This document shows positions 13,072 through 28,945 of a stretch of 39,057 bases of DNA, piece after piece. The translations under genes were made by a program, and so were the position numbers. The stretch lies in contig JAAWOG010000031.1 of NCBI GenBank assembly GCA_022799355.1, forward strand, positions 1-39,057. The letters run 5' to 3'. Each line of letters starts with the position of its first letter. The stretch's first letter is position 1. The DNA is from Lachnospiraceae bacterium. Its GTDB lineage: Bacteria > Bacillota > Clostridia > Lachnospirales > Lachnospiraceae. Under the pieces are notes generated by a model. It saw nothing but the letters and a program-made list of their open reading frames with translations. It made no database searches and was not told the DNA's origin.

Positions 13072-13431
13072 ATGAAACGCGGAGATATTTACTATGCCGA
13101 CTTAAGGCCCGTGGTAGGTTCCGAACAGGGCGGCGTGAGACCGGTACTTATCGTGCAGAACGACACGGGAAACAGGCACAGCCCCACAGTGATCTGTGCG
13201 GCAATTACATCGAGACAGAATAAGGCGAAACTGCCCACTCATATCGAGCTTCGGGCGGATCAGTACCAGATGGAGAAAAATTCGGTTATTTTACTGGAAC
13301 AGTTAAGGACGATAGATAAAATGAGATTGAAAGACAGGGTTTGCCATCTGGATGAGAAAATGATGCATCAGGTAAACCACGCGCTGGCGATCAGCCTGGA
13401 ATTAAACAGCAGAAGTTCATCTGCCGGCTGA
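13072..13431 (+). CDS. mazF: MazF/PemK-family endoribonuclease toxin
   Basis: The 119-residue protein begins [31 protein letters not shown], the full N-terminal signature of Firmicute MazF/Endo[10 protein letters not shown] and THIE follow, and then [17 protein letters not shown], which forms the dimer/RNA face. Family members cut mRNA at short specific sites. AAGAGGTGAG precedes ATG. The usual partner would be a MazE-type antitoxin directly upstream. None is present in the 216 bases after alr, apart from a 31-codon frame. A strong terminator ends the unit. Confidence 0.94.
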
Positions 13432-13581: not shown

Positions 13582-13610
13582 TTGACAGAGAATAAGTTAT
13601 GCCATACTAT
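13582..13610 (+). promoter_or_regulatory. Sigma-A promoter for the activase/GRE unit
   Basis: TTGACA (13582-13587), a 17-base spacer, then TACTAT (13605-13610). The predicted start is near 13617, which puts the operator at 13624 just downstream of it. Confidence 0.8.
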
Positions 13611-13623
13611 AGAGATACAGGAA

Positions 13624-13640
13624 ATAAAAACGTTTTCATT
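13624..13640 (+). promoter_or_regulatory. LacI-type operator, copy 1
   Basis: ATAAAAACGTTTTCATT contains the palindrome AAAACGTTTT with a central CpG, the pattern bound by LacI/PurR-type proteins. Identical 17-mers occur at 16827 and 16893. Its position about +8 to +24 would block transcription. Confidence 0.8.
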
Positions 13641-13675: not shown

Positions 13676-14530
13676 ATGGAGACGATCACAGGCACCGTAT
13701 TTGATATCAAACAACTGGCAGTATTCGATGGTCCCGGCATCCGCACCACGGTTTTTTTAAAGGGCTGTCCTCTGCGCTGTGCCTGGTGCCATAATCCGGA
13801 AGGGCTGTCGCCCTCAAGGCAGCTTATGGTCAGTACAGGGAGCTGTATACGGTGCGGGGAATGCAAAAAGATCTGTGAACATCCTGAGCACTGCGTAACA
13901 TGCGGTGCATGTATCCTGTCCTGTCCGCTCCATATCAGGAAAATATGCGGCGTGACATATACGGATAAGGCGCTGGCGGAAAAGCTGCTGAGAGATAAGG
14001 ATATTCTGGAAAAAAACGGCGGTGGAATCACTTTTTCGGGCGGCGAGCCGACAATGCAGGCGGCGTTTCTTCTGGCAGTGCTGAAAAGGCTGAAAGGGAT
14101 GCATCGCGCCATCGAAACCTGCGGCTATTGCAGACCGGATATTTTTCAAGCGATATTAGGAGAACTTGAATTGGTTATAATGGATATCAAGCTGGCAGAT
14201 CCCCGGGAGCATAAAAAATGGACCGGGAAGGATAACGCCGTTATTTTACATAATCTTGAGATTCTGAAAAACAGCCGGATTTCCTTTCGCATCCGGATTC
14301 CGGTGATTCCGGGAGTGAATGATTCCGAAAAAAATTTTGAGGAGACGGCAGGACTTCTGCGGGGCGCATCCGCTCCAGAAAAGGTGGAACTGCTTCCTTA
14401 CCACAGAACGGCAGGTGCAAAGTATACCATGGTGGGAATGGCGTACAGGCCCGGGTTTGAAGAGGAGAGGGCGCCTTATCTCCATACGGATATTTTTGAA
14501 AAGTACGGAATTTCGGCAAAAATACTATAG
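13676..14530 (+). CDS. Glycyl-radical enzyme activating protein (radical SAM)
   Basis: The 284-residue enzyme uses S-adenosylmethionine and a 4Fe-4S cluster to install the glycyl radical on its partner. The radical SAM motif is CPLRCAWC (C-x3-C-x2-C). It is followed by two further cluster motifs at about residues 57-87: CIRCGECKKIC and CVTCGACILSCP, each C-x2-C-x2-C-x3-C. This two-cluster insert is typical of activases of dehydratase-type and other non-PFL glycyl-radical enzymes. TFSGGEPTMQ is the SAM-binding GGE motif. The start DGPGIRTTVFLKGCPLRC is canonical. The gene is first in its unit and lies 14 bases before the GRE gene, its evident substrate. Confidence 0.95.
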   Translation: METITGTVFDIKQLAVFDGPGIRTTVFLKGCPLRCAWCHNPEGLSPSRQLMVSTGSCIRCGECKKICEHPEHCVTCGACILSCPLHIRKICGVTYTDKALAEKLLRDKDILEKNGGGITFSGGEPTMQAAFLLAVLKRLKGMHRAIETCGYCRPDIFQAILGELELVIMDIKLADPREHKKWTGKDNAVILHNLEILKNSRISFRIRIPVIPGVNDSEKNFEETAGLLRGASAPEKVELLPYHRTAGAKYTMVGMAYRPGFEEERAPYLHTDIFEKYGISAKIL

Positions 14531-14544
14531 AGGAGGAACAGGGG

Positions 14545-16617
14545 ATGACACCGAAAATTGAGACGATGTTGGAGTACTATGTGGTAAAAAAGGAGCATCG
14601 GAAATACCGGCAGGAGAAAAAGGACGCTTACCGTTATGCCGGTGAATATGCAGGGAAGGGACTGGGAGATTTGGAGCGCAGCGTGTGCAGGCTGCGGGAT
14701 GTGCTGGCAGAGGAGACTCCGGTGGTGCTTCCCGGCGAGTCCATTGCCTTTCTGCGCACGGTTCCGGTACTGCCGGAGATTTTTACCAAAGAGGAGATGG
14801 AGCGGATCGCGGCGGCGCATTATATTCACGAACAGGGAAAGGTATGCAATATCAGCCCGGATTATGAAAAACTGTTATCCTGCGGTACAAGGGCAAAAAA
14901 GCGGCAGATTTCGGAGAAGATAAAAGTGTTTGAGGAAAAGGGGCAGCTGAAAGAGGCGGAAACCGAAAGAGCCATGTATGATACGCTCCGCATCATGGAA
15001 GAATTTGCGGAGAGATACCAAAAAGAAGCGGAACGTGTGGGGAATACCGAAATTGCGGAAATGCTACGCCGTATACCGGAGGAAAAACCGGCATCTTTTC
15101 AGGAAGCCCTGCAGTTTTTGAGAATCATTCACTATTGTCTGTGGTGCAGTTTTCAATATCATAATACGCTGGGAAGGTTTGATCAGTATATGTATTCCTT
15201 TTATGAGGAAGATATCAGGGCGGGAAGGCTGACAAAGGAGGGCGCCCTCGAACTGCTGGAAGAATTTTTTATATCCCTGAATAAAGACAGCGACCTCTAT
15301 ACCGGCATGCAGCAGGGAGATAACGGACAGAGCATGGTGCTCGGCGGCATGTGCCCGGACGGAACCGAAAGTTATAATGAGCTGTCGGATCTCTGTATGC
15401 AGGCTAGCCTTGAGTTGAAGCTGATCGATCCGAAGATCAATCTGAGAGTCCATAAAAATACGCCGCTGTCTCTGTATGTGCGGGGGACGGAGCTGACGAA
15501 GGAAGGGCTGGGATTTCCCCAGTATTCCAATGACGATATTGTGATAGAGGCGCTGAAAAACTGGGGCTACGAGGAGAAGGATGCCTATCGCTACACGGTA
15601 GCGGCGTGCTGGGAGTTTATCATTCCGGGCTGCGGCATGGATATCTCCAATCTGAACGGGTTATCTTTCCCGGCCTGTGTGATGGAAGCCGTAAGCAGGC
15701 TGGAGGAGACAGGGGATTTTGAGGACCTGATGGCAAATGTTAAAAAAGCCGTCTTTGCACAGGCGGATAAACTCCGGGCAGGGGTACACGATATCTATAT
15801 GGAGCCGGCGCCGCTGATGAGCATACTGATGGACGGCTGTGTGGAAAAGGGCACGGATATCAGCAAAGGAAATAAATATAACAATTTTGGCTTCCACGGC
15901 ACGGGGATCGCTACGGCGGTGGATTCCCTTGCGGCCATCCGAAAATATGTGTTTGAGGAAAAGAAGATCACGAAGTCGGAACTTCTTGAGGCTCTTCATA
16001 CAAACTTTGAGGGCAGGGAGCGGATGGCGAATATGCTCCGCTATGAAGCGCCCAAGATGGGCAATGACGATGATGAGACGGATCAGATTGCCGTAACCTT
16101 ACTTAACTGGTTTGCGGATTCCATGGAGGGGCATGTGAACGAGCGCGGCGGCAGATACCGGGCGGGAACGGGTTCCGCCATGTACTACATCTGGCAGTCA
16201 AAGGATATGCCGGCAACGCCGGACGGCAGAAGGGCGGGAGAAGAATTTGCCGCCAACTACAGTCCCAGCCTTTTCACCAGGTTAGAGGGACCGTTCTCCA
16301 TTATCAAATCCTTTGCAAAGCCCGATCTTACAAGGGTGGCAAACGGCGGCCCTCTGACCATTGAGTTGACGGACAGCATGTTTCGGAATGCGGAAAGTAC
16401 GGAGAAGACGGCGCAGTTTGTGAAAACCTTTATTGACCTTGGCGGGCACCAGATGCAGATCAACGCGGTGAACCGGGAAAAACTGCTGGATGCGAAGAAG
16501 CATCCGGAGAAGTATAAAAACCTGATCGTGCGCGTCTGGGGCTGGAGCGGTTATTTTGTGGAACTGGATGAATGTTATCAGGACCACATTATCAAGAGGA
16601 TGGAACTTGTGTGCTGA
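14545..16617 (+). CDS. Glycyl-radical enzyme of unknown specificity (short PFL/dehydratase-like)
   Basis: The 690-residue protein is shorter than most pyruvate formate-lyases and diol dehydratases (roughly 760-850). The C-terminal glycine loop reads RVWGWSGYF, with radical Gly at about 666; most families have R-V-x-G-Y there, so tryptophans flank the glycine. The thiyl cysteine is in AACWEF (Cys355, Glu357), close to the G-C-x-E of radical dehydratases, where the Glu acts as base. A second Cys363 follows. YNNFGFHGTGIATAVDSLAAI is the usual dehydratase-like core. These features suggest dehydration or C-O chemistry and not PFL activity, but the substrate cannot be read. It follows its activase and shares an operator with the sugar operon downstream. 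AGGAGG precedes ATG. Confidence 0.9.
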   Translation: MTPKIETMLEYYVVKKEHRKYRQEKKDAYRYAGEYAGKGLGDLERSVCRLRDVLAEETPVVLPGESIAFLRTVPVLPEIFTKEEMERIAAAHYIHEQGKVCNISPDYEKLLSCGTRAKKRQISEKIKVFEEKGQLKEAETERAMYDTLRIMEEFAERYQKEAERVGNTEIAEMLRRIPEEKPASFQEALQFLRIIHYCLWCSFQYHNTLGRFDQYMYSFYEEDIRAGRLTKEGALELLEEFFISLNKDSDLYTGMQQGDNGQSMVLGGMCPDGTESYNELSDLCMQASLELKLIDPKINLRVHKNTPLSLYVRGTELTKEGLGFPQYSNDDIVIEALKNWGYEEKDAYRYTVAACWEFIIPGCGMDISNLNGLSFPACVMEAVSRLEETGDFEDLMANVKKAVFAQADKLRAGVHDIYMEPAPLMSILMDGCVEKGTDISKGNKYNNFGFHGTGIATAVDSLAAIRKYVFEEKKITKSELLEALHTNFEGRERMANMLRYEAPKMGNDDDETDQIAVTLLNWFADSMEGHVNERGGRYRAGTGSAMYYIWQSKDMPATPDGRRAGEEFAANYSPSLFTRLEGPFSIIKSFAKPDLTRVANGGPLTIELTDSMFRNAESTEKTAQFVKTFIDLGGHQMQINAVNREKLLDAKKHPEKYKNLIVRVWGWSGYFVELDECYQDHIIKRMELVC

Positions 16618-16627
16618 GCAGAATGTA

Positions 16628-16665
16628 CGCCAAAAGCCCGGAAGTGGTTTTCCGGGCTTTTGGCG
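16628..16665 (+). terminator. Stem-loop terminator after the GRE gene
   Basis: CGCCAAAAGCCCGGAA (16628-16643) pairs perfectly over 16 bp with TTCCGGGCTTTTGGCG (16650-16665) across a six-base loop. No long T-run follows, but the strength and location, 10 bases after the stop codon, support termination. Confidence 0.8.
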
Positions 16666-16786: not shown

Positions 16787-16815
16787 TTGACATAATACAA
16801 TATCAGGTGTAATAT
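16787..16815 (+). promoter_or_regulatory. Sigma-A promoter for the GH78/ABC-transporter operon
   Basis: TTGACA (16787-16792), a 17-base spacer, then TAATAT (16810-16815). The expected start is near 16822, giving a leader of about 100 bases that carries two operator copies. Confidence 0.8.
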
Positions 16816-16826
16816 AAAGGCATGCA

Positions 16827-16843
16827 ATAAAAACGTTTTCATT
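16827..16843 (+). promoter_or_regulatory. LacI-type operator, copy 2
   Basis: ATAAAAACGTTTTCATT, identical to copies 1 and 3, begins 12 bases after the -10 hexamer, which is nearly the same placement as copy 1. Confidence 0.8.
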
Positions 16844-16892
16844 AAAACCTGAACTATAACATATTTAAGATACTTAATTTTTTTTGTTGTCA

Positions 16893-16909
16893 ATAAAAAC
16901 GTTTTCATT
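16893..16909 (+). promoter_or_regulatory. LacI-type operator, copy 3
   Basis: A third identical 17-mer, 66 bp after copy 2 and just before the ribosome binding site of the GH78 gene. The pair could allow cooperative binding or looping. Confidence 0.78.
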
Positions 16910-16925
16910 GAGAGGACAGAAGGAA

Positions 16926-19658
16926 ATGCGGGTTATCAATTTAAAGTGTGACGGGCTGAGAGAGGCAATACAGGTTTCGCCTGATAAACTCTTCTTTAGC
17001 TGGAATCTGGAAAGTGAAAGAGAAGGTGTCTTCCAGAGCGCCTATCAGCTTATCGTGAAACGGGAAGAGGATGTGTTGTGGGATACGGGGAAGGTAAGTT
17101 CGGAGGCATGTCTGTATATTCCTTATGAGGGAAAAGGGCTTGCAGAATCTTCCCGCTATGAATGGCTGGTCAGAGTCTGGGATCAGTCAGGCCGGGCGAC
17201 GGACTTTGCGGCATCTTTTTTCGAGACGGGGCTTTTGCACTGGGGCGGGGAGTGGATCGGATACGACGAACCGGCTGACGGAAAGGTATTTGATCCGAAA
17301 AAACCTTTTTACTGTGCCGACGATTTTGACAAGGGGGAAAATGATTACTTTCTTCCGCCGGCGCCTTATCTGAGAAAAGAGTTTGCGCTGGAACGAAAAG
17401 TAAAGTCCGCAAAGATTTATATCTCAGCCTTTGGGCTGGCGGATGTCAGGATCAACGGAAAGCCGGTCGGAAGCGAACGTTTTGTACCAGGGATGTCAAA
17501 CTATACCGAAACGGTTTACAGCGCCGCTTTTTCGGTGACAGACCTTGTGAAGGAGGGAAAAAATACGCTGTCCGTTATACTGGCGGACGGCTGGTATGCC
17601 GGATATATCGGCTTGAACAACCGGGAATGGTACGGCAGGGAGCCGAGGGTGCTGGTCAATCTGGTAATCACCTCGGAGGATGGGGAACAGAGTACCATCG
17701 TCACGGACGGCACATGGAAGGCGGCTTACGGCGGTGTCCGGGAGGCGGACATCATGGAAGGGGAAAAATTCGATGCGCGCATGGAACCTGCCGGTTGGCG
17801 GGAGAATGGCTTTGATGATACCGGCTGGGACAGGGTTCGGACGGGAAGCGAATATGATCTGACGCCGCAGCCCCACCCCGGCGTGGGCGTCACGGTACAT
17901 GGTGTGGTTCAGCCTGCCGGGATCAGGGAAGTAAAGAGGGAAGGCGGAAACAATCCGGATCGGCAGCAGGGATGCCGGGAGCGCAGGACAATCCGGATCA
18001 GGTTCGATCAGTACATATGCGGTGTGCTCCGCCTGAGCCTGAGAGGAGAAAGAGGCGCGAAAGTCGTGATACGCCATGCGGAAACGCTGAATGAACAGGG
18101 AGAGCTTCATGTAACAGGAAACCGCTCGGCGCGCAGCCAGGACGAGTATATTTTAAGCGGTGAAGGGGAAGAGTCCTTTTCCCCCCGATTTACCTATCAT
18201 GGTTTCCGGTTTGCGGAGCTGACGATGGAGGGAAAAGCGGAACTGATCAAAGCGGAGGGCGTCCGGATCGGAACACGCCTTCTACATACCACAAAGTTTC
18301 ATACAAACCGGGAAATCGTCAACTGTATTTACGGGATGGTGCTGGCAACGGAAAGGGCAAATCTTTTCGAGGTTCCCACGGACTGTACGGCGCGGGATGA
18401 GCGGCTTGGCTGGGGGAATGAAGGCAACCATTTTCTTTCCGCCATGACTTATATAAACGACCAGTACCGGATGATCCGCAAGTGGACAAAGGATATCTGG
18501 GACGGCCAGAGAAAGGACGGGGCGCTGGAAGCCATCGCGCCGACCATGATGATGAAGGATGTGGAAGGGTTTGTGGGAGATATCCAGTCCAACCACGGTA
18601 TCTACATGATATATACACTGTACAGAATGTATGGTGACACAAATGTCATAAAAGAGTATTTCCCGCAGATGCTGAAATTCTTTGATTTTCTGGAGCGAAA
18701 CAGTGACCGGCATATCCGGACTTCCATCGGCTGTGACTGGCTCGGTATTTTGGAGGAGACCGGATATTCCGATGAACAGCACGGCTACGGAGACAGCTGT
18801 CCGACGATAGTGGGAACGGCGCACTATGTATTTGTAGTGAAGATGATGGCTGAGATGTGCCGGGCACTTGGCAGCCGGGAATATGAGGAAAAATTTGAGA
18901 ACCTGCGCAGAGAGATACTGAGAACTTTAAGAAATCACTACATCCAGAGGGATGGAAGCCTGCGCAGTAAAAAACAGGGGGATTACCTGATCGCGCTGGC
19001 GTGCGGTATGTTTGAAGGACGGGAGGAGGAGGCAGCGGCTGATTTTCTGGAACGGAAGATGACGGAGAAAGGATATGTCCGCTGGTTTGGCGGAACAGCC
19101 ATCACACCGTATATGCCCATCACCCTGAAAAGACTTGGAAAAACGGATCTTGTGAACCTCTTTCTCATATCGGAACGGTATCCGGGCATCGGCTATATGA
19201 GCAAAATGGGCTATGACACGATCTGGGAGAGATGGGATGGCGTCAGGGAGGACGGCTCGCTCCATCCCCAGGCGATGAACGCCATGTGCCACGAGGGCTA
19301 TGCCGTCATCGGCGCCTATCTGATATCCGGGCTTGCGGGGATTGATACCATATCCGGCGGTTTTCGGGAAATCCTGATCTGTCCCGGGATATCAAAGGAG
19401 ATCACGGCGTGCAGTTGTTCTTATCAGAGTGTATACGGAGAAATTTCCGTGGACTGGAACCTGACGGGAGATTGTTTTGAGATAACAATAAAAATCCCCT
19501 GCAGCACAAACGCCCGGCTGATCCTGCCCTGTACGGAAAAAGGAAGCCTTAAGACGGCGGAAGGATATGTCGGGGAGGCGGAATATGGGGAGGGCACGGT
19601 GAAGGCGAAAATCAGATCCGGCAGATATCGTATCAGGACAACTTATATACCATCGTAA
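16926..19658 (+). CDS. GH78-type alpha-L-rhamnosidase, cytoplasmic
   Basis: The 910-residue protein has the GH78 layout: N-terminal beta domains (WGGEWIGYDEP; KIYISAFGLADVRINGKPVG; LADGWYAGYIGLN), then an (alpha/alpha)6 barrel starting near residue 450, then a C-terminal beta domain. EVPTDCTARDERLGW (Glu about 492) is the family's acid-residue signature. It normally continues T-G-D, but here reads G-N-E-G, so one usual aspartate is replaced. There is no signal peptide, so it would act on imported rhamnosides. ATG 16926 was chosen because AGAGGA is nine bases upstream. A start at 16884 would run through operator 3 and add unrelated residues. It is first in the operon with the sugar transporter. 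Confidence 0.88.
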   Translation: MRVINLKCDGLREAIQVSPDKLFFSWNLESEREGVFQSAYQLIVKREEDVLWDTGKVSSEACLYIPYEGKGLAESSRYEWLVRVWDQSGRATDFAASFFETGLLHWGGEWIGYDEPADGKVFDPKKPFYCADDFDKGENDYFLPPAPYLRKEFALERKVKSAKIYISAFGLADVRINGKPVGSERFVPGMSNYTETVYSAAFSVTDLVKEGKNTLSVILADGWYAGYIGLNNREWYGREPRVLVNLVITSEDGEQSTIVTDGTWKAAYGGVREADIMEGEKFDARMEPAGWRENGFDDTGWDRVRTGSEYDLTPQPHPGVGVTVHGVVQPAGIREVKREGGNNPDRQQGCRERRTIRIRFDQYICGVLRLSLRGERGAKVVIRHAETLNEQGELHVTGNRSARSQDEYILSGEGEESFSPRFTYHGFRFAELTMEGKAELIKAEGVRIGTRLLHTTKFHTNREIVNCIYGMVLATERANLFEVPTDCTARDERLGWGNEGNHFLSAMTYINDQYRMIRKWTKDIWDGQRKDGALEAIAPTMMMKDVEGFVGDIQSNHGIYMIYTLYRMYGDTNVIKEYFPQMLKFFDFLERNSDRHIRTSIGCDWLGILEETGYSDEQHGYGDSCPTIVGTAHYVFVVKMMAEMCRALGSREYEEKFENLRREILRTLRNHYIQRDGSLRSKKQGDYLIALACGMFEGREEEAAADFLERKMTEKGYVRWFGGTAITPYMPITLKRLGKTDLVNLFLISERYPGIGYMSKMGYDTIWERWDGVREDGSLHPQAMNAMCHEGYAVIGAYLISGLAGIDTISGGFREILICPGISKEITACSCSYQSVYGEISVDWNLTGDCFEITIKIPCSTNARLILPCTEKGSLKTAEGYVGEAEYGEGTVKAKIRSGRYRIRTTYIPS

Positions 19659-19744: not shown

Positions 19745-20857
19745 ATGAAACGAAACATGTTAGCAGCTTTATTATGTGTGTCTTTGACGGCAGCAATGCT
19801 GACCGGATGCGGTTCCGCGGAACCGGAAGCGGCAGAGCCCGCACCAGAAGCAGCCGGGGAGGCGGAGGCGCCTGCCGAGGAGACGCCGGCGGCAGAGGAA
19901 GAAGCACCTGCCGGGGAAGCGCCTGCGGCAGAAGGGAATACCTGGAATATCGGCTACTGTAACCAGCAGATGAAGGAGGACTTCTTTATTACGGTGGAGA
20001 GCGCAATTTATACGGCGGCAATGAATGCCGGCCACGAGTACAATCTGGCAATCACGGACCGTGACTCGACAAAGATGGTGACCAGCATCGAAACCCTTGT
20101 CACAAAGGGCGCGGATATCATCGTTGACTTTAACTGCCTGCCGGAACAGGGCGCGGCGACGGGAGAAAAACTTGCGGCGGAAAATATTCCGATGCTGTCC
20201 ATCGACTCCGATTACGGCGAGAACGTTTATTTCTTCGGTGTGAACAACTATGACGCCGGCACACAGCTCGGTAAATCGCTGGAAGCTTTCGTGGATGAGA
20301 GATTCGGCGGCGAAGTGGACTTTGTCGTAGCGCTCTGGGATTCCCAGGCGGGCGATGTCGTAAAGATGCGCTGTGAGGGCGCCACCGATGAGATTCAGGA
20401 GAAGTACGGCCTCAGTGACGACCAGGTGGTATGGCTTGACTGTATGGCGGACGATACCAAGACACAGTCCATGACAAGAGACTGGCTGGATGCCCATCAG
20501 GATGCGGAGCATATCGTATTTGTAGGACAGAATGACGACAGAGGCTATGCGATCAATCAGGCTGTCATCGCGGCGGACAGAGTGGCAAACTGCCTGATCG
20601 GTTCCCACAACGCAGATCCCTCCTCCGTGGAAAATCTGCAGAAAAACACGGAAGATCCCACGGCAACGGCCTGGGTGACGACCATGGCTTATAACTCTTT
20701 CTTATATGGTGAGCAGATCATCGCCTATGTGGAAGATATTATGGCAGGCGGTGCAGAAATGCAGCGCTATGCGGAGATCTCTCCTCTGACAACGGAAAAC
20801 GTAGATGACTACATTGCAGAACGCGACGAAGTACAGGCTAATTTTATAGAACACTGA
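19745..20857 (+). CDS. Sugar ABC transporter substrate-binding lipoprotein (RbsB/Peripla_BP_4 type)
   Basis: The 370-residue protein has a lipoprotein signal peptide ending LTGC (Cys about 22). A roughly 40-residue Ala/Pro/Glu linker follows, and then a two-lobed periplasmic-binding-protein fold starting WNIGYCNQQMKEDFF. KGADIIVDFN, IPMLSIDSDYG, VGQNDDRGYAINQAVIAA and LIGSHNADPS are typical of ribose/galactose-type binding proteins. It would sit outside the membrane and deliver a sugar or small glycoside to the permease. A near-perfect AAAGGAGG site precedes ATG. It lies 86 bases after the rhamnosidase gene. The ligand is not predictable from sequence alone. Confidence 0.92.
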   Translation: MKRNMLAALLCVSLTAAMLTGCGSAEPEAAEPAPEAAGEAEAPAEETPAAEEEAPAGEAPAAEGNTWNIGYCNQQMKEDFFITVESAIYTAAMNAGHEYNLAITDRDSTKMVTSIETLVTKGADIIVDFNCLPEQGAATGEKLAAENIPMLSIDSDYGENVYFFGVNNYDAGTQLGKSLEAFVDERFGGEVDFVVALWDSQAGDVVKMRCEGATDEIQEKYGLSDDQVVWLDCMADDTKTQSMTRDWLDAHQDAEHIVFVGQNDDRGYAINQAVIAADRVANCLIGSHNADPSSVENLQKNTEDPTATAWVTTMAYNSFLYGEQIIAYVEDIMAGGAEMQRYAEISPLTTENVDDYIAERDEVQANFIEH

Positions 20858-20982: not shown

Positions 20983-22476
20983 ATGGATAAAGTGCTTGAA
21001 ATGAAACAGATCTATAAAGCATTTCCGGGCGTAGTGGCTGTTGATAAGGTAGACCTGACATTATATAAGGGTGAAGTGCTGGCTCTTATGGGGGAAAACG
21101 GCGCAGGAAAATCGACGCTGATCAAAATACTTTCCGGTATGTATACGCCGGATTCGGGAGAGATCATCATTGATGGAAAAAGCCATGGCAGCCTGACGAC
21201 AAAGCAGTCTCTTGACGAAGGAGTGGCTGTGATCTATCAGGAACTGAATTATTTGAATGATCTGTCGATCGCGGAAAATATACTGCTCGGACAGGTGCCG
21301 GTGAAAGGACCTTTCCGGAAGGTGGATTATGCGAAAATGTATGACAGTGTGCGCAGCATTATGGAGGAAGTGGGCTTAGGGCACAGGGAGCCGACGGATA
21401 TGGTAAGGATTCTGTCCGTGGCGGAAAAACAGTTGATAGAGATTGCCAGAGCCTTTTCCCATCATGTGAAAATTCTTGTTATGGATGAGCCGACCTCCGC
21501 TCTGAACGAGACGGAAACGGAAAAGCTGTTTGAACTGATCTTCAGGATTCGGGAAAAAGGAATCGGCATTATCTACATATCTCACCGGATGGAGGAACTT
21601 TTTAAAGTCGCGGACCGGGTGGAAGTCATGCGTGACGGTAAATATGTGACCGACAGGCCCGTGTCGGAGATGACTACGGACGACGTGGTGGCCGCAATGG
21701 TAGGGCGGCAGGTGAAGGAGATGTACCCCGGACGGGAGTGCGGGATCGGAGAGACCGTACTGGAGGTAAAAAATTTAAGGACCGCCTTTTTGAAAGATCT
21801 GTCCTTTCATATCAGGGCAGGGGAAGTTGTGGGATTTTTCGGCCTGATGGGGGCGGGACGATCCGAGACTGCCAGATGCCTGTTCGGCGCACAAAAGCCC
21901 GAGAGCATGGAAATAACGATGGAAGGCAAAAAGATCGAAAACAAAACGCCGAAGGAAGCCCTTTCACATGGTATGTCCTATGTGCCGGCGGAGAGAAAAA
22001 CGGAAGGGTGTAATCTGGTCATGTCGGTGAAGGACAATATCACGTTGTCGGATTTAAAGGGCATTACAAAACACCGCCTTCTGGATCTGAAATATGAGCG
22101 GGAAGTGGCAGGGAAATGGTCTGAGAAACTGAAGGTAAAAACGCCCACGCTGGATACACCTGCCGACAGCTTAAGCGGCGGCAATCAGCAGAAACTGGTC
22201 ATTGCGAAATGCCTGAATACGAATCCGAAGTTTTTGATCCTGAACGAACCCACAAGAGGGATCGACGTGGGCGCGAAAGTGGAGATTTATGATCTGATCA
22301 ATGAAATCTGCAAAGATGGCAGGGCGGTTATGATGATCTCTTCCGAGCTGCCCGAGATTATGGCGATGAGTGACAGGATCTATGTAATGTGTGAGGGACG
22401 TATTACGGGAGAAGTGGCAAAAAAGGATTTTACACAGGAAAGGCTGATGAAATTGGCAATTGGTGAGGTGGATTGA
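20983..22476 (+). CDS. Sugar ABC transporter ATP-binding protein (RbsA/MglA type, two ABC domains)
   Basis: The 497-residue ATPase has fused domains. Domain 1 has Walker A GENGAGKST, the Q-loop in YQELNYL, signature LSVAEKQL and Walker B ILVMDEPTSAL. Domain 2 has the degenerate Walker A GLMGAGRSE usual in this family. Its signature is LSGGNQQK, and its Walker B reads FLILNEPTRGIDVG, with Asn where Asp is common. Domain 1 is therefore probably the main ATP hydrolysis site. It drives the permease encoded directly after it, with one base between the genes. The 125-base gap before it contains the stem-loop at 20852. Confidence 0.95.
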   Translation: MDKVLEMKQIYKAFPGVVAVDKVDLTLYKGEVLALMGENGAGKSTLIKILSGMYTPDSGEIIIDGKSHGSLTTKQSLDEGVAVIYQELNYLNDLSIAENILLGQVPVKGPFRKVDYAKMYDSVRSIMEEVGLGHREPTDMVRILSVAEKQLIEIARAFSHHVKILVMDEPTSALNETETEKLFELIFRIREKGIGIIYISHRMEELFKVADRVEVMRDGKYVTDRPVSEMTTDDVVAAMVGRQVKEMYPGRECGIGETVLEVKNLRTAFLKDLSFHIRAGEVVGFFGLMGAGRSETARCLFGAQKPESMEITMEGKKIENKTPKEALSHGMSYVPAERKTEGCNLVMSVKDNITLSDLKGITKHRLLDLKYEREVAGKWSEKLKVKTPTLDTPADSLSGGNQQKLVIAKCLNTNPKFLILNEPTRGIDVGAKVEIYDLINEICKDGRAVMMISSELPEIMAMSDRIYVMCEGRITGEVAKKDFTQERLMKLAIGEVD

Positions 22477-22477
22477 T

Positions 22478-23428
22478 ATGAGCAGAGTAAAGAATATATT
22501 GAAAAACGCAAGAGGGGAACTGAGTGCCCTGATCATGCTGACTATTTTATGGATCATTTTCGGAGTGGGCTCCCCATACTTTCTGACCTTCCGGAATATT
22601 ATGAACATCGGTTCCTATATGTCGATCATGGGAACGCTTGCCGCCGGGCTCACGGTAGCGATGCTGCTTGGCGGACTGGATGTGTCCCAGTACGCGCTTG
22701 CGGCGCTGGGCGGCATGATACTCGGTGTTTTATATGAGGCGGGGCTGCATCCCGTTTTGATCCTTTTGTGTGTTTTGATACTCGGTATCGTGGGCGGAAG
22801 CTTTAACGCCTTCATTATTACGGTGATGAAGGTAAACCCGATCATCTGTACCATGGGGACAAGTTTTATCTTCCGCGGATTTGCCTACCTGTTAACCAAC
22901 GGCAGATATATCCGTATCGACGATCCGGTCTTTTATTTTATCGGCAACGGCAGGATCGCCGGCGTGCCTACCTGTCTGATCATTATGCTGGTCACCTACG
23001 GGGTGATCTGGTATGTGCTGAAATATACGGTTTACGGGAGGTCCGTATTTGCGGTGGGCGGCAACCTGACGGTGGCAAAGCTTGCCGGCATCAACACGAA
23101 TATGGTTAGGTTTATCTCCCATATCCTGGCGGGGATCTGCGCGGTCCTCGGCGGCATTATCACGGTATGTCAGGCTTCTTCCTGTATGGCGAGCCAGGGA
23201 TACGGTAATGACATGAACGGCATATCGGCGGTTATCCTTGGCGGTATCTCCATGGCGGGCGGCAGAGGCAATGTCTGGGGCACCCTGATCGGCGTTGGCA
23301 TCTTATCCACCCTTGTCAACGGTATGACGCTGCTGGAAGTAAACGCCTACTGGCAGCAGATCATCCAGGGGCTCGTTCTGGTCAGTGCGGTATTTATCGA
23401 TGCCATGAGAAATGCCAAACGTTCCTGA
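22478..23428 (+). CDS. Sugar ABC transporter permease (BPD_transp_2, RbsC type)
   Basis: The 316-residue protein has about eight to ten membrane helices. VAMLLGGLDVSQYALAALGGM and the ISAVILGGISMAGGRGNVWGT motif are those of RbsC/XylH-type permeases. The homodimer would form the channel for the neighbouring ATPase and binding protein. I start it at ATG 22478, preceded by GAGGTGG at the end of the ATPase gene. The in-frame ATG at 22460 would overlap that gene. A weak AT-rich terminator follows. Confidence 0.93.
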   Translation: MSRVKNILKNARGELSALIMLTILWIIFGVGSPYFLTFRNIMNIGSYMSIMGTLAAGLTVAMLLGGLDVSQYALAALGGMILGVLYEAGLHPVLILLCVLILGIVGGSFNAFIITVMKVNPIICTMGTSFIFRGFAYLLTNGRYIRIDDPVFYFIGNGRIAGVPTCLIIMLVTYGVIWYVLKYTVYGRSVFAVGGNLTVAKLAGINTNMVRFISHILAGICAVLGGIITVCQASSCMASQGYGNDMNGISAVILGGISMAGGRGNVWGTLIGVGILSTLVNGMTLLEVNAYWQQIIQGLVLVSAVFIDAMRNAKRS

Positions 23429-23523: not shown

Positions 23524-24594
23524 ATGAAAGAGATAAAAAGCAGTTCCCGGGCGAAAGTAACGATAGTAGATGTTGCGAAATATGCGGGCGTTGTGCCGAG
23601 CACGGTATCTCATGTGCTGAACGGGACCGCCCAGATCACCGATGAGACGAAGGCAAAGGTGCTTCACGCCATAGAGGTGCTGCACTATACGCCGAACGCA
23701 TCCGCCAGAAACCTGCGGCAGAAGAGAACCCGGCTGATCGGCGTGGTTTTGCAGGATATTTCCAGTGAATTTTACGCCAAATGTACGGCAAGTATGCTGA
23801 AAGAGGCGCTGAAGGACAATTACGCGCTGATGGTTATGGACGCCTGTTTTGACAATAACAATGTGAAGGCGCAGGTATCCGCCCTGATCGAGAGGAGGGT
23901 GGAGGGCATCGTGTTTGTGGGCGGCGGCAACGACGAGGATATTTTGCAGGAAGTGGAGAAATACAATATTCCGGTTGTACTTGGAGACCGGAATGACGGA
24001 AGGCATCCCTGCGTGGAGTTTAATAATGAGGAGACGGTCTATCGGCTGATCTGCGCCCTGCATGAGAGCGGCTACCGGAAATTTGCCTATGCGGGCGAAC
24101 CGCTGGAAATTCAGGAGAACCTGAAATTCCGGTATCAGGGGTTTGTCAGAGGGCTGGACGCCTGCGGCGTCCCCCAAAAGGACCGGATCAACATTGTGAC
24201 AAAGGATCTCCATATCGATAAGATCGATGCGGCGTACGCCGCGTTTATGAGGCTGTTTACGGATGAACGTCAAAAACCGATACCGGATGTGATACTGACG
24301 TCCAACGATCTGATTGCCCAGGGATTTGTGGCGGCGGCTCTCTCTAACGGGATCAAGGTGCCGCAGGAGGTGGGCATTGTGGGGTTCGATGATATTTCCA
24401 TCTCAAAGTTTTTTCAGCCGCCCCTGACGACGATCTGCCAGGACAAGGATGAGTTGGGCATCCACTGCTACCGACTGCTGAAAAAGGTAATAGAGGGCAG
24501 CAAAGAACAGGAACATGTGATCCTGAAACAGAAGATTAAGAACAGAAAAACGACGAACATACCGGATGAGATCATGGTAAAATATCTGACCTGA
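23524..24594 (+). CDS. LacI/PurR-family transcriptional regulator
   Basis: In this 356-residue protein the N-terminal helix-turn-helix reads VTIVDVAKYAGVVPSTVSHVLN. Its recognition end TVSHVLN is nearly that of PurR (TVSHVIN), which binds AAACGTTT-centred sites. The hinge helix TPNASARNLR contains the leucine that LacI proteins insert at a central CpG. Both features fit the operators AAAACGTTTT at 13624, 16827 and 16893. The C-terminal domain is a periplasmic-binding-like sensor (LIGVVLQDISSEFYAK; VPQEVGIVGFDDISISKFFQPPLTTI). It is probably the local repressor of both catabolic units, released by a sugar from the pathway. GGAGG precedes ATG. Confidence 0.92.
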   Translation: MKEIKSSSRAKVTIVDVAKYAGVVPSTVSHVLNGTAQITDETKAKVLHAIEVLHYTPNASARNLRQKRTRLIGVVLQDISSEFYAKCTASMLKEALKDNYALMVMDACFDNNNVKAQVSALIERRVEGIVFVGGGNDEDILQEVEKYNIPVVLGDRNDGRHPCVEFNNEETVYRLICALHESGYRKFAYAGEPLEIQENLKFRYQGFVRGLDACGVPQKDRINIVTKDLHIDKIDAAYAAFMRLFTDERQKPIPDVILTSNDLIAQGFVAAALSNGIKVPQEVGIVGFDDISISKFFQPPLTTICQDKDELGIHCYRLLKKVIEGSKEQEHVILKQKIKNRKTTNIPDEIMVKYLT

Positions 24595-24627: not shown

Positions 24628-25632
24628 ATGAAAATAGAAAAAACGGATCAACAGGAAAAGGTGCTGAGAGCCATGCTCTGTATGACAAGACAGTGCTGGG
24701 AACAGGGGATGGCGGCGCAGTGCCTTTCGGAGCTCGGCAGGGAGGAGGAACTTTCGCTGGTCGTATATGATATGGTGCGGCGTCAGAGTTCCGACGGCAG
24801 GCTTTGCAATATAGAAAATACACCGGCCGTTACGGATTCCGCTTTTTGCATCCCGGCGGTGATGGACTATGCCCGGAAAACGGGGGATGACGCCTGCAGG
24901 AAGGCGGCGGAAAAAAACATACGGTTTCTGCGGGAGGATGCGGAGCGGGCAGAGGACGGCACTTTGTACCATATGATCCATACAAAGGAGATCTGGGCGG
25001 ATTCCGCGGCGTATATGCCCTACGCCCTGGCAAAGGCAGGATATGCGGAGGAGGCGCTTGTACAGATGGAAGGGATCTGCCGCCGGCTCTATGATGAAAA
25101 GACGGGACTTTATGCCCACAAATGGGACGAGGGGCAGAAGGATTTTATCAGGGCGGATTTATGGGGGATCGGAAACGGCTGGATACTGACCGGACTGATG
25201 CGTTTATATTCTGAGATTCCCCCATCCCGTGCAAGAGAAAGGGCGGAGCTTTTACGCCGGATGCGCTCCCTTTTGGATGCGCTCCTCTCCCATGAGACAA
25301 AGGACCATGTCTTTCATGATGTGCTGGATAGGCCGGAGACCTTTACGGAATCCGAGACAGGAGCCATGACGGCATACACGATCTACAAATGTATCGGGGA
25401 AGGCATTCTCGACAAGGCATACGCAGGGCGTGCCGACCGGATCTGCGATGCCCTTAAAGGGAGGGTGTCCGATGCGGGACTGGTATGCCAGGCGGCAGGC
25501 TCCCCGGACTTTTTAACGCCCGGTACCTCCGTAGAATGTCAGGCACATTTTCTGTTAATGCAGCACTATCGAAATGGGAGGAGGGCCTTAAGCAAAACCA
25601 TTTCATCAGGAAGGAATCAGCCGGAAACCTGA
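24628..25632 (+). CDS. GH88/GH105-type unsaturated uronyl hydrolase
   Basis: The 334-residue protein has an (alpha/alpha)6-barrel pattern. IWADSAAYMPYALAKAG and ADLWGIGNGWILTGLMRLYSEIP match the conserved substrate-pocket segments of the YteR/YesR (GH105) and GH88 hydrolases, which remove a 4,5-unsaturated uronic acid from oligosaccharides by hydration. There is no signal peptide, so it works on imported material. It follows the regulator by 33 bases and precedes deoC by 28. Together with a rhamnosidase it suggests rhamnogalacturonan- or rhamnosyl-glucuronate-type substrates. The family is fairly sure; the exact linkage is not. Confidence 0.8.
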   Translation: MKIEKTDQQEKVLRAMLCMTRQCWEQGMAAQCLSELGREEELSLVVYDMVRRQSSDGRLCNIENTPAVTDSAFCIPAVMDYARKTGDDACRKAAEKNIRFLREDAERAEDGTLYHMIHTKEIWADSAAYMPYALAKAGYAEEALVQMEGICRRLYDEKTGLYAHKWDEGQKDFIRADLWGIGNGWILTGLMRLYSEIPPSRARERAELLRRMRSLLDALLSHETKDHVFHDVLDRPETFTESETGAMTAYTIYKCIGEGILDKAYAGRADRICDALKGRVSDAGLVCQAAGSPDFLTPGTSVECQAHFLLMQHYRNGRRALSKTISSGRNQPET

Positions 25633-25660: not shown

Positions 25661-26359
25661 ATGAAAAATCCGGAAAAACTCACAGTCCGGGAACTGGCGG
25701 CAATGATGGACCATACGCTTTTGAAAGCCTACGCCGTGAAAGACGATTTCAAAAAGCTGTGCGGGGAGGCGGCGGAAAACGGGTTTGCCATGGTGGCAAT
25801 CAATTCCTCCCAGGTGCGTACATGCAAAGAATTTTTGAAGGGCACAAATATCCATGTGGGAGCGGCGATCTCTTTTCCGCTGGGGCAGACCGAACCGGAT
25901 GTGAAAGTCTTTGAGACGAAAAAGGCGATCGAGGACGGCGCCGATGAAATCGATTATGTGATTAATATCGGGGAACTGAAAATGGGGCATGACGATTATA
26001 TCCGGCGGGAGATGGAGGCGGTCGTAAAAGTCTGTCGTGAGAATCATGTGCTGAGCAAGGTGATCTTTGAAAACTGCTATCTGACAAAAGAGGAGATCGT
26101 CCGCGCGGCAAAGATCGCAGGGGAAGTTAAGCCCGATTTTATCAAAACGAGTACGGGTTTCGGTACTTCCGGTGCGGATGCGGAAGATGTGAGGCTGATG
26201 AAGCAGACCGTGGGAGATGCCGTGAAAGTGAAGGCTGCAGGCGGTATCCGGGACTGGGAAACATGTAAAAAGATGCTGGAGGCGGGCGCGGAGCGGATCG
26301 GTACAAGCAGCAGCATAAAGATCTGTGAAGAGTTCAGAAGGGAAAGAGAGGGAAAGTAA
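25661..26359 (+). CDS. deoC: Deoxyribose-phosphate aldolase-family enzyme (DeoC)
   Basis: The 232-residue class I aldolase has MDHTLLKA at its start. DEIDYVINIGEL carries the catalytic Asp region, DFIKTSTGFGTSGA carries the Schiff-base Lys (about 162), and VKVKAAGGIRDW carries the second lysine. Classical DeoC splits 2-deoxyribose-5-phosphate to acetaldehyde and glyceraldehyde-3-phosphate. Here it lies between a glycosidase and a lactonase-like gene, away from nucleoside genes. It may act in sugar catabolism on a related deoxy-sugar phosphate. AAAGGAG precedes ATG. Confidence 0.92.
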   Translation: MKNPEKLTVRELAAMMDHTLLKAYAVKDDFKKLCGEAAENGFAMVAINSSQVRTCKEFLKGTNIHVGAAISFPLGQTEPDVKVFETKKAIEDGADEIDYVINIGELKMGHDDYIRREMEAVVKVCRENHVLSKVIFENCYLTKEEIVRAAKIAGEVKPDFIKTSTGFGTSGADAEDVRLMKQTVGDAVKVKAAGGIRDWETCKKMLEAGAERIGTSSSIKICEEFRREREGK

Positions 26360-26360
26360 T

Positions 26361-27359
26361 ATGCAGATATCCAGATTGTTTACGCTTCTTCCGGAGGAAT
26401 ATGTCTGTACTCCGGACGGAATGGAGATTGATAAAAACGGGGATCTGATCTTATCCTGTCCCAACTTTGCGCAGGATGATATGTCAGGGTGCGTGATCAG
26501 GATCACAAAAGATAAAAAGATCAGTAAGTGGTTTGACGTGCCGGTGCATCCCGGGACCGGTATTGCCAGAAATATGGGAATCGCCTTTGACGATGACTGG
26601 AATATGTATATCTGTGACAACCAGGGCTGGTCCGGGAACCCTTCTCTTGTGGGAAAGGGCAGGATGCTCAAGGTCCTCTTTGATGAGGAGAGAAACGTGA
26701 AGGACTGGTATACCGTGGCTTATGATATGGAGCATCCCAACGGCGTGCGTATTTATAAAGGCTATATGTATGTAACCCAGAGCTGTATGGAGAAGGTGCG
26801 GGACAAATCGGGAAAACTGGTGAGCTGTGTGTACAGGTTCCCGCTGGATGCGAAGGATATCAAAATTTCCAATACGCTGGAAGATCCCTATATCTTTACG
26901 ACTTTTATCACCCACAATCCGAAGTGCCAGTACGGTGCGGACGGTATTGAGATTGACAGTAAGGGAAATCTGTATGTGGGCAACTTCGGGGACGGGGAGG
27001 TATGGAAATTCCGTCTGGATGAGAAGGGTGATATTCTGGAACAGGAAGTTTATGCGAAAAATCCGGCGGAGCTTATTTCTACGGACGGTATGATTATGGA
27101 TGAGAATACGGGAAACCTCTATATCGCGGATTTTAACAATAACGCCATTGTAATGGTGGACAAAGACCGTGTGACAAGGCGGGTGGCACAGTCGCCGGAC
27201 TGCGACGGTTTTCACGGAGAACTGGATCAGCCGGGAGAACCGATCATCTGGAACGGAAAGATCATCGCTTCCTGCTTTGACCTTGTGACGGATGAGACAA
27301 AGGTAAATACGGCGCATGAGATGCCTGCTACGATGGCGGAGCTGGATCTTGAGGCGTAA
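26361..27359 (+). CDS. SMP-30/gluconolactonase-like beta-propeller protein
   Basis: The 332-residue protein has repeated propeller blades: CTPDGMEIDKNGDLILS, MGIAFDDDWNMYICDN, YGADGIEIDSKGNLYVGNFGDG and STDGMIMDENTGNLYIADFNNN. The acidic and Asn residues would bind the metal. Such proteins hydrolyse sugar lactones to aldonic acids; some have other roles. ATG 26361 lies one base after the deoC stop codon with GAGGG upstream, so the genes are translationally close. There is no signal peptide. It pairs logically with the MDR dehydrogenase that ends the operon. Confidence 0.78.
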   Translation: MQISRLFTLLPEEYVCTPDGMEIDKNGDLILSCPNFAQDDMSGCVIRITKDKKISKWFDVPVHPGTGIARNMGIAFDDDWNMYICDNQGWSGNPSLVGKGRMLKVLFDEERNVKDWYTVAYDMEHPNGVRIYKGYMYVTQSCMEKVRDKSGKLVSCVYRFPLDAKDIKISNTLEDPYIFTTFITHNPKCQYGADGIEIDSKGNLYVGNFGDGEVWKFRLDEKGDILEQEVYAKNPAELISTDGMIMDENTGNLYIADFNNNAIVMVDKDRVTRRVAQSPDCDGFHGELDQPGEPIIWNGKIIASCFDLVTDETKVNTAHEMPATMAELDLEA

Positions 27360-27397: not shown

Positions 27398-28945
27398 ATG
27401 GGGGATTATATTCTTGCCCATGATCTGGGCACTTCGGGGAATAAGGCGGTGCTGTTTTCCGCGGACGGCAGGCTGATCGGCAGCATGCAGACAGGTTACG
27501 GCGTATTTTATGAGCGGAAGCTTTGGGCAGAGCAGGATTCCGAGGACTGGTGGCGGGCGGTGTGCACATCTACGAAAAAACTGCTGGCACAGTATAATAT
27601 TGCGGCGGAGGATGTAAAAGCGGTGAGTTTCAGCGGACAGATGATGGGAGCGCTTCCTGTGGACAAAAACGGAAAGCCGCTGACAAGAGCCATCATCTGG
27701 GCGGACATGCGGGCGCAGAAACAGTCCGACATGCTGCGGGAAAAAATTGACGACGAGAGGTTTTATCGCATTACCGGCCACAGAAATACGGCCTCCTACG
27801 GCATTCAGAAAGCCATGTGGATACGGGAAAATATGCCGGAGGTTTATGAGCGGACATACAAATTCTTAAATGCCAAGGATTATATGGTTTACAGGCTGAC
27901 CGGAAAGTTTTACACGGACGCTTCGGATGCCTGCGGCATGGATTGTCTGGATCTTGCGGGGCGTACCTGGTCTGAGGAGATCGTGGAAGCGTCCGGTATC
28001 TCTTATGAGAAACTGCCGAAGATCGCGGAATCCGTCTTCTATGTGGGAAATGTTACAAAGGAGGCGGCAAAGGAGACGGGGCTGTCCGTCCATACCAGGG
28101 TGATTTTAGGCGCCGGGGACGGTGTTGCCGCCAACGTGGGAGCCGGCTGCATAGCACCAGGGAAGGCTTACTGCTGTATGGGAACGTCGGCCTGGGTGGC
28201 GTCCACTTCGGAGAAGCCTGTGTTTGACGAAAAGAGGCGGATCGTCTGCTGGGCACATGCGGTGCCGGGGCTCTATTCCCCCAACGGTACGATGCAGTAC
28301 GCGGGTGGTTCCTATAGCTGGCTGAAACAGACGATCTGCTTGGATGAGGCAAGGCGCGCGGAGGATGCCGGCATCTCGCCGTATGAACTGATGAACAGGG
28401 AAATACAAAAGAGCGAAAGAGGCGCCGGCGGCGTTCTGTTTCTGCCCTATCTGATGGGGGAGCGGGCGCCGAAGTGGAACGAGGATGCAAAAGGCGTATT
28501 TTACGGTATCACGGCAAAGACCACAAGGCAGGATATGCTGCGCAGTGTGATGGAAGGGATTGTTATGAATCTGGCGGAATGCTTTTCGGTTCTGCGGGAG
28601 AGTTCCGATATCGAGGAACTGACGCTGATCGGCGGCGTGGCAGGGAGCGACATCTGGCAGAGGAGCATTGCGGATATCTTTGGCGTCAGAGTGCATGTTC
28701 CCGTGTTTACGGAAGAGGCAAATTCCATCGGAGCGGCGGTGATCGCCGGAGTGGGAAGCGGGCTGTTAAAAGACTTTTCAGCGGTGGAGAGATTCCTTCC
28801 GGGCAGGGAGAAGATTTTATACGACAGGGAAGCCCACCGGTTTTATAAGGGGCAGATGGAACTGTTTGGCGAAGTTTACGGGGCGCTGATGCCGGTCTAT
28901 ACAAAGAAATGGGAGGATGCGGGGAAAGGAGACAAAGAGCAATGA
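27398..28945 (+). CDS. FGGY-family carbohydrate kinase (xylulokinase-like)
   Basis: The 515-residue kinase has two actin-like domains. Domain 1 begins ILAHDLGTSGNKAVLF (phosphate 1 loop), with SFSGQMMGALPVD and AIIWADMRAQ for sugar binding and catalysis. Domain 2 has VILGAGDGVAANVGAGC, CCMGTSAWV, GGVLFLPYLMGERAP and LTLIGGVAGSDIWQRSIADIFG. The overall pattern is closest to xylulokinase-like members, but FGGY kinases vary in substrate and this one could phosphorylate a ketose, polyol or aldonate. It overlaps the next gene by ATGA. It would supply the phosphorylated substrate for the aldolase. Confidence 0.9.
   Translation: MGDYILAHDLGTSGNKAVLFSADGRLIGSMQTGYGVFYERKLWAEQDSEDWWRAVCTSTKKLLAQYNIAAEDVKAVSFSGQMMGALPVDKNGKPLTRAIIWADMRAQKQSDMLREKIDDERFYRITGHRNTASYGIQKAMWIRENMPEVYERTYKFLNAKDYMVYRLTGKFYTDASDACGMDCLDLAGRTWSEEIVEASGISYEKLPKIAESVFYVGNVTKEAAKETGLSVHTRVILGAGDGVAANVGAGCIAPGKAYCCMGTSAWVASTSEKPVFDEKRRIVCWAHAVPGLYSPNGTMQYAGGSYSWLKQTICLDEARRAEDAGISPYELMNREIQKSERGAGGVLFLPYLMGERAPKWNEDAKGVFYGITAKTTRQDMLRSVMEGIVMNLAECFSVLRESSDIEELTLIGGVAGSDIWQRSIADIFGVRVHVPVFTEEANSIGAAVIAGVGSGLLKDFSAVERFLPGREKILYDREAHRFYKGQMELFGEVYGALMPVYTKKWEDAGKGDKEQ

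Follow-up and report, generated by a model that had tools for sequence, protein, structure and literature searches.

Among described glycyl-radical enzymes (GREs), the CxE motif is the conserved feature of the eliminases, and the pocket contains an aromatic residue packing against the substrate, Phe395 in the case of CutC, according to PMC8473560. Many of the GREs abundant in the gut have unknown functions, according to PMC11574389. None of the substrates given for GREs in the literature and PDB titles that we compared is a free sugar. By PDB titles, YbiW/PflD are GREs bound to sugar-like cyclic substrates (1,5-anhydroglucitol-6-phosphate and 1,5-anhydromannitol-6-phosphate). Here, we compared these enzymes with a short GRE encoded in a 39,057-nucleotide stretch of a Lachnospiraceae genome (hereafter the window; Table 1).

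Relation of the window GRE to described enzymes

The window protein carries a PFL-like domain and a C-terminal glycine radical domain (Pfam E-values of 2.8e-105 and 4.8e-21, both above the cut-off) as well as an active-site cysteine, and its gene adjoins that of an activase, all of which places it in the GRE superfamily. The original prediction described a 690-aa GRE with RVWGWSGYF and ACWE loops, and the reading frame and both loops proved exact. The AlphaFold model of the protein has a mean pLDDT of 91.6 and a pTM of 0.91, with residues 255-260 as its least sure part. By Foldseek, CutC, propanediol dehydratase, glycerol dehydratase and HypD lie at a similar distance (23-26% identity, TMq 0.83-0.88), while some substrate-free CutC chains score lower. 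The first match, CutC (5fau), shares the CxE motif but only 24% identity, and the column equivalent to its Phe395 is occupied by Gly261. The B12-independent glycerol and 1,2-propanediol dehydratases (1r8w, 5i2g, 9rco; TMq 0.85-0.87) have the PFL-like fold, the CxE motif and the glycine loop in common with the window GRE, but are ~100 residues longer and 24-26% identical. HypD, an eliminase, also shares CxE.

None of the NCBIfam GRE models reached its cut-off for the window GRE. Scores were 362.9 bits versus 678.2 for PFL2/glycerol dehydratase (TIGR01774), 266.6 versus 1050 for CutC (TIGR04394), 318.1 versus 1100 for HypD (NF043068), 278.9 and 279.8 versus 1000 for (2S)-3-sulfopropanediol dehydratase (NF048009 and NF048011), and 201.8 versus 1150 and 217.7 versus 1100 for HPAD/indoleacetate decarboxylases (NF033715 and NF033718). 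On PRK09983, which we compared for YbiW/PflD, the window GRE scored 297.2 bits versus 1109.

Relatives were collected by a scan of GTDB contigs, in which at least 592 stretches matched, at least 559 of them with a gene related to the query. We kept the 80 best of these loci (50-83% identity to the query), which come from six phyla: Bacillota, Spirochaetota, Bacteroidota, Verrucomicrobiota, Lentisphaerota and Planctomycetota. Going by record titles, many clade records derive from rumen and gut. Within the same family, 12 of 299 genomes searched, the window's own included, had a near full-length match, namely the query and 11 others at 41-67% identity, after which matches drop to 36% identity with the query aligned in part only. 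The clade gene is rare in Bacteroidales, being found in 2 of 344 genomes surveyed (E 1e-150), one of them the survey's centre genome. Plasmid records gave 28 matches, all below 60% identity; among these, the ten listed either bear the annotation of another GRE or have none.

Both loops are clade-wide. Motifs were counted over 80 ORFs (the window and 79 of the best 80 GTDB loci; no ORF was picked at L080, which was left out), and R(V/I)WGWS(G/A)YF was found in 77 and AACWE in 79, with 78 fitting a pattern that also demanded a later Pro. The miss at L065 was a wrong pick, a second and unlike GRE, and the clade member there has both motifs; L096 has His in place of Tyr; and in L088 (8504-10504), where the gene abuts the end of a MAG contig, Asp takes the place of the radical Gly (RVWDWSCYF), perhaps through a mistake in the sequence or because this copy is inactive. 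Being short is typical of the family, as 55 of the 80 first-start ORFs (one of which, at L065, was wrongly picked) encode 684-694 aa.

A quick maximum-likelihood tree with 61 rows recovered the 30 clade rows (the window, 25 of the 80 GTDB loci and 4 of the 11 family-draw loci) as monophyletic, with one label change and an SH-aLRT of 99, and placed YbiW, PflD, PflB, HypD, CutC and HPAD outside. The tree carries a long-branch warning, and L017, inside the clade, is among the long branches. Isethionate lyase, benzylsuccinate synthase and the N-methyl-hydroxyproline dehydratases were left out of the tree rows and were seen only among remote structural matches in the PDB, at 20-25% identity. The proposal of a separate GRE subfamily with unassigned substrate is thus borne out by the single tree clade, the NCBIfam scores and the similar structural distances, and the check for clustering within a characterised family, which covered the enzymes placed outside the clade in the tree, gave no such grouping. 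The subfamily was not recognised by name among the open-licence papers listed by literature searches.

Nearest to the clade in the tree, on long branches, is a pair of sister short GREs (L029 and L031; contexts L158-L162). They resemble the clade in being short and in having ACWE, a Trp before the radical Gly, and the (D/E)PK and GDTGQ motifs, but differ in the Phe that follows the radical Gly (RVWGFS) and in their 30-35% identity to the window GRE. Four of the sister GREs at L158-L162 have 642-677 aa and RVWGFS, and the copy at L162 has an internal stop. Apart from a match to MalF at one end of L159, no seeded sugar genes were found beside the sister GREs in these five stretches.

Table 1 Features of the window, with positions counted from its first letter
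Feature	Position	Strand	Basis or remark
Palindromic operator candidate ATAAAAACGTTTTCAT, copy 1, 16 bp	13624..13639	.	before activase-GRE
Operator candidate, copy 2	16827..16842	.	before GH78 unit
Operator candidate, copy 3	16893..16908	.	inside TTG-started GH78 ORF
Sigma-70-like promoter TTGACA-17-TACTAT before activase-GRE	13582..13610	+	consensus match, 10/12
Sigma-70-like promoter TTGACA-17-TAATAT before GH78	16787..16815	+	consensus match, 10/12
Radical-SAM GRE activase, 8-Cys insert	13676..14530	+	TIGR02494 above cut-off; Radical_SAM (Pfam)
Glycyl-radical enzyme (GRE)	14545..16617	+	690 aa, ATG start; PF02901, PF01228
CxE motif codons, Cys355-Trp356-Glu357	15607..15615	+	invariant, 46/46 aligned clade rows
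Radical glycine loop codons, Trp665-Gly666-Trp667	16537..16545	+	invariant, 46/46 aligned clade rows
15-bp inverted repeat just after GRE	16629..16664	+	by eye; no T run, absent from terminator scan
GH78 alpha-L-rhamnosidase-like protein	16884..19658	+	Pfam; ORF from TTG start
Sugar-binding protein, Peripla_BP_4	19745..20857	+	Pfam
RbsA/XylG-type ATPase of monosaccharide ABC importer	20983..22476	+	Pfam; no equivalog cut-off reached
RbsC-type permease	22460..23428	+	Pfam; no equivalog cut-off reached
LacI-family regulator	23524..24594	+	Pfam; candidate operator reader
GH88/GH105-like hydrolase, YteR relatives	24628..25632	+	Pfam and further search
DeoC-type aldolase	25661..26359	+	TIGR00126 243.1 bits, cut-off 117.3
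SMP-30/NHL-type propeller, possible lactonase	26325..27359	+	PF08450 48.2 bits; only weak NHL-type PDB matches
FGGY kinase	27398..28945	+	xylulokinase model TIGR01312 above cut-off
Zinc alcohol/polyol dehydrogenase (ADH)	28909..29985	+	profile matches

Active-site residues and activase

Active-site positions were compared in a MAFFT alignment of 46 clade rows (the window and 45 of the 80 GTDB loci) with 31 other GREs, the sister pair included. Cys355 and Glu357 are retained throughout the clade rows, so that all 46 carry the CxE motif of GRE eliminases. PflB lacks the Glu, whereas the HPAD decarboxylase row shown keeps the motif (GGCLET), and CxE is therefore necessary but not sufficient, allowing elimination without proving it. 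The likeness to radical dehydratases that had been drawn from this motif holds for the retained Cys and Glu, but does not separate them from the HPAD decarboxylase.

As predicted, Trp flanks Gly666 on both sides (W665-G666-W667), in 46 of 46 clade rows, while the residue preceding the radical Gly is Ala in 25/31 and Trp in 2/31 of the other GREs, and the residue following it is Tyr in 24/31, in line with the R-V-x-G-Y expected of most known GREs, and Phe in 5/31. The middle residue of CxE is invariably Trp356 in the clade versus Val in 23/31 others (Val, Leu or Ile in 28/31) and Trp in 2/31. The two Trp exceptions are the sister GREs L029 and L031, and CWE, although clade-wide, is accordingly shared with a sister group. 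Four further positions are invariant in the clade: Asn102 (His in 22/31 other GREs), Gly261 in all 46 rows (Phe, Tyr or Trp in 26/31), Glu607 (Lys in 26/31) and Gln636 (His in 25/31); Asn369 and Gly543 are likewise invariant replacements. In this alignment the clade has lost the packing aromatic of strand 3 (now Gly261) and gained a Trp beside the catalytic Cys, suggesting that the pocket has been remodelled and made more polar; Trp356 could plausibly serve as a stacking platform for a sugar ring.

The activase translation contains CX3CX2C and eight more cysteines in two CX2CX2CX3C blocks. These are the two extra 4Fe-4S motifs that had been noticed and taken as a sign of dehydratase-type systems. 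The 8-Cys motif is termed widely conserved in PMC6453916, so by itself it is no marker of dehydratases, and that part of the claim falls.

Gene neighbourhood and a candidate regulon

An activase homologue was found in 76 of 81 stretches (the best 80 GTDB loci and the window). Neighbours were counted with homology seeds and compared with a control of 20 hand-chosen loci of other GREs, a contrast that is somewhat flattering because the seeds came partly from clade loci and the stretches are of unequal length. Transporters for sugars (XylE-type porters and ABC systems of the ribose or maltose type) occur near 51/80 of the best GTDB loci versus 2/20 other-GRE loci, sugar isomerase, kinase, aldolase or epimerase genes near 23/80 versus 1/20, glycosidases near 20/80 versus 0/20, and arabinofuranosidase-type genes (GH51, GH127, GH43) near 14/80 versus 0/20. 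The corresponding counts among the 11 same-family clade loci are 7, 8, 2 and 0. LacI genes are not enriched (19/80, 3/11 and 4/20, respectively). At 29 of the best 80 loci, no seeded sugar transporter was found in the fetched stretch, and the gene chain around the GRE has two genes at 17/80 and one gene at 6/80. Partner enzymes differ by lineage, and comprise DeoC, a FucI-like isomerase with an aldolase, XylA/XylB, or none. DeoC as a universal partner was rejected, as 13 of 43 GRE genomes searched had no DeoC match at E 1e-15.

The window unit downstream of the GRE combines hydrolases, a monosaccharide importer, a regulator and catabolic enzymes (Table 1). In Diplocloster, GRE, GH78, ABC, GH88, LacI, ADH, FGGY and DeoC again occur together in a different order; L038 has most of the window set with the GRE, but DeoC and FGGY are absent from the stretch read; and in L047 and L048 DeoC lies ~10 kb downstream. 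A lactonase reading of the SMP-30/NHL protein was set aside, given its low-scoring matches. Upstream, a small ORF at 13072-13431 follows an alanine-racemase-like gene and appears to resemble a MazF/EndoA-type protein.

The palindrome ATAAAAACGTTTTCAT has three exact copies in the 3.79-Mb genome (97.9% complete), all at the GRE locus, and these are the only sites at ≤1 mismatch; in the window, ≤2 mismatches gave 6 strand-wise matches (3 sites) versus 0.06 expected in shuffles. One copy stands before activase-GRE and two before the GH78-sugar ABC-LacI-GH88-DeoC-FGGY-ADH unit. In the L047 and L048 genomes, 3/3 and 4/4 sites are at the GRE locus, one per genome with a mismatch, while a reversed control had 1 match in each of the three Lachnospiraceae genomes. 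Copies 1 and 2 each follow a promoter-like TTGACA-17 pair, at a distance of 13 and 11 bases, respectively; the region has 10 promoter-like sites versus 5.7 in shuffles, so that these promoter calls are suggestive only. Since copy 3 falls inside the TTG-started GH78 ORF, translation probably starts at ATG 16926. The inverted repeat after the GRE is a possible end of the first transcription unit. With locus-specific sites before both units, activase-GRE and the sugar unit encoding LacI look like one dedicated regulon, and the LacI protein is the likely reader of the operator candidate. If it does read this palindrome, its inducer should be the GRE substrate or a close relative.

A comparable arrangement with another palindrome, ACATTAACGTTAATGT, was found in the spirochaetes L104 and L110, before LacI-activase-GRE and before GH127-SBP-MalF-MalG, and twice in L054, once with a mismatch, before activase-GRE-isomerase-aldolase-kinase. 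At ≤1 mismatch there are two sites per genome and none elsewhere in these three genomes, versus one site for the reversed control in L110 and none in L104 or L054. The GH127-like protein of L104/L110 is a distant member: 7 of 9 PDB matches are named beta-L-arabinofuranosidase or similar, the best match not among them. Repeated palindromes also turned up in L042 and L064, where they do not precede the GRE.

Other regulators and neighbours were seen at single loci or small groups of loci. In 8 loci (e.g. L116:8773-9816) there is a regulator of the GntR type whose C-terminal region is large; it is divergent from and adjoins the clade GRE in six of them and lies farther away in L082 and L092. In a goat omasum MAG (L069:12081-14747), a TIR-domain protein with WD40-type repeats directly follows the GRE. 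In E. coli K-12 (L134), yjjI-yjjW, another GRE-type pair, lies beside deoC.

Proposed function and competing readings

The candidate regulon and neighbours place the GRE in the breakdown of an intracellularly released monosaccharide, and its CxE motif fits an eliminase. We therefore favour, tentatively and with confidence just short of even, a radical C-O eliminase with a free, probably plant-derived monosaccharide or one of its close derivatives as substrate. Aldose 1-epimerase genes near 13 of the best 80 loci and a XylE-like sugar porter among clade neighbours indicate free sugars. In the proposed scheme, the dedicated importer and intracellular glycosidases would supply the monosaccharide or close derivative, the activase would install the radical on Gly666, and the radical would move to Cys355, whose thiyl would abstract H from an OH-bearing sugar carbon. 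Glu357 would accept the OH proton as the neighbouring C-O group departs. The resulting deoxy-keto sugar (alternatively a deoxy-aldehyde or a lactone) could pass to the kinase, the aldolase and the dehydrogenase of the adjoining genes. The substrates first suggested for assay (sugars, sugar alcohols, deoxy sugars and aldonates) fit both neighbourhood and candidate regulon.

A pentose such as L-arabinose is weakly the leading single candidate. Arabinose-releasing enzymes are commonest over the 80 loci, but such genes are absent from the 11 same-family loci. The window's own hydrolases are of rhamnosidase and GH105-like type, and its genome encodes AraA and RhaA. These two isomerases also count against a sugar eliminase, because free arabinose and rhamnose would have ordinary routes, as does the lineage-dependent choice of partners, which fixes no single pathway. 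AraA occurs in 5 of 9 tested genomes with the GRE beside GH51 or GH127. Replacement of AraA by the GRE was also considered, and the counts show no clear pattern, with AraA in 19/33 and RhaA in 27/33 chosen GRE genomes, among which completeness is given for the window's own genome alone.

A more specific and doubtful extension is that the subfamily performs radical deoxygenation of unphosphorylated monosaccharides. An aldopyranose, for example, would lose its 2-OH to give a 2-deoxy-3-keto sugar or a 2-deoxylactone, by the chemistry of anaerobic ribonucleotide reductase minus the reductant; the Trp of CWE would be a sugar platform replacing the strand-3 aromatic, and the reaction would be an entry route of anaerobes for plant-cell-wall sugars. 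If the subfamily does act on sugars, its spread over six phyla among the best 80 GTDB loci would make it a new entry into carbohydrate fermentation.

An unlikely alternative is that the GRE dehydrates a small diol that arises in sugar breakdown, for instance 1,2-propanediol (rhamnose) or ethylene glycol (pentoses), with ADH or AKR taking the aldehydes. GH78 and GH106 rhamnosidase-type genes near some clade members, AKR and ADH in some GRE operons, and propanediol dehydratases among the nearest folds are in keeping with this, but the pocket is not. The substrate-pocket residues of glycerol and propanediol dehydratase, His164, Tyr339 and Asp447, align with Asn102, Gly261 and Asn369, each invariant in 46/46 clade rows; the Tyr339 column meets Gly261 in the MAFFT alignment and a gap in another. 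Moreover, the same genome has another GRE (L001, contig 39) with motifs like those of these dehydratases (GH, GHSIS, SLFQN, CVEPQ, WHD), and the operator candidates of L104/L110 mark only LacI, activase, GRE, GH127 and the ABC importer.

We consider it similarly unlikely that, as in the ring opening catalysed by YbiW/PflD, the GRE breaks a C-O linkage of ether type (in a glycoside, a methyl ether or an anhydro ring) instead of removing water. The PDB titles of YbiW and PflD with bound anhydrohexitol phosphates (8id7, 8id0) imply that ring-shaped polyols fit GREs; the GRE and a glycosidase are, in addition, the only catabolic enzymes beside the L104/L110 operator candidates. Against this, YbiW and PflD lie outside the clade, a Pfam scan of 19 window proteins found no PTS genes, and an ether substrate is without direct evidence.

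About as unlikely is a radical alditol route, in which loss of water at C1-C2 turns a pentitol into a 2-deoxypentose that is phosphorylated by FGGY and split by DeoC into acetaldehyde and glyceraldehyde 3-phosphate. The window, L047/L048 and Diplocloster have DeoC, FGGY and ADH together with the GRE, and all but the window have an AKR as well; the window genome has two further DeoC copies; and the Lys motifs KTSTG and VKAAGG are present. Yet the GRE genomes lacking a DeoC match, DeoC-FGGY-ADH sets without the GRE in the stretches read (L148-L151, L157) and aldose epimerase genes, which indicate an aldose, all speak against it, as do the FucI-type isomerases of other clusters, which cannot use 2-deoxy aldoses. 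Radical chemistry other than elimination (C-C cleavage, decarboxylation or isomerisation) is slightly more unlikely still, since the CxE Glu is present in all 46 clade rows and absent from PflB and the HPAD rows fall outside the clade, even though many conserved GRE positions are altered (with Glu607 in place of Lys and Gln636 in place of His, for example) and the HPAD decarboxylase row also has the CxE loop.

As a separate observation, a second, unlike GRE (793 aa, with AGCQEP and an RIHGTF loop) directly follows the clade GRE and activase at L065:3501-5879 and is itself followed by FGGY and PfkB kinases, and a GRE with loops of these types is also encoded in the window's own genome (L003, contig 52).
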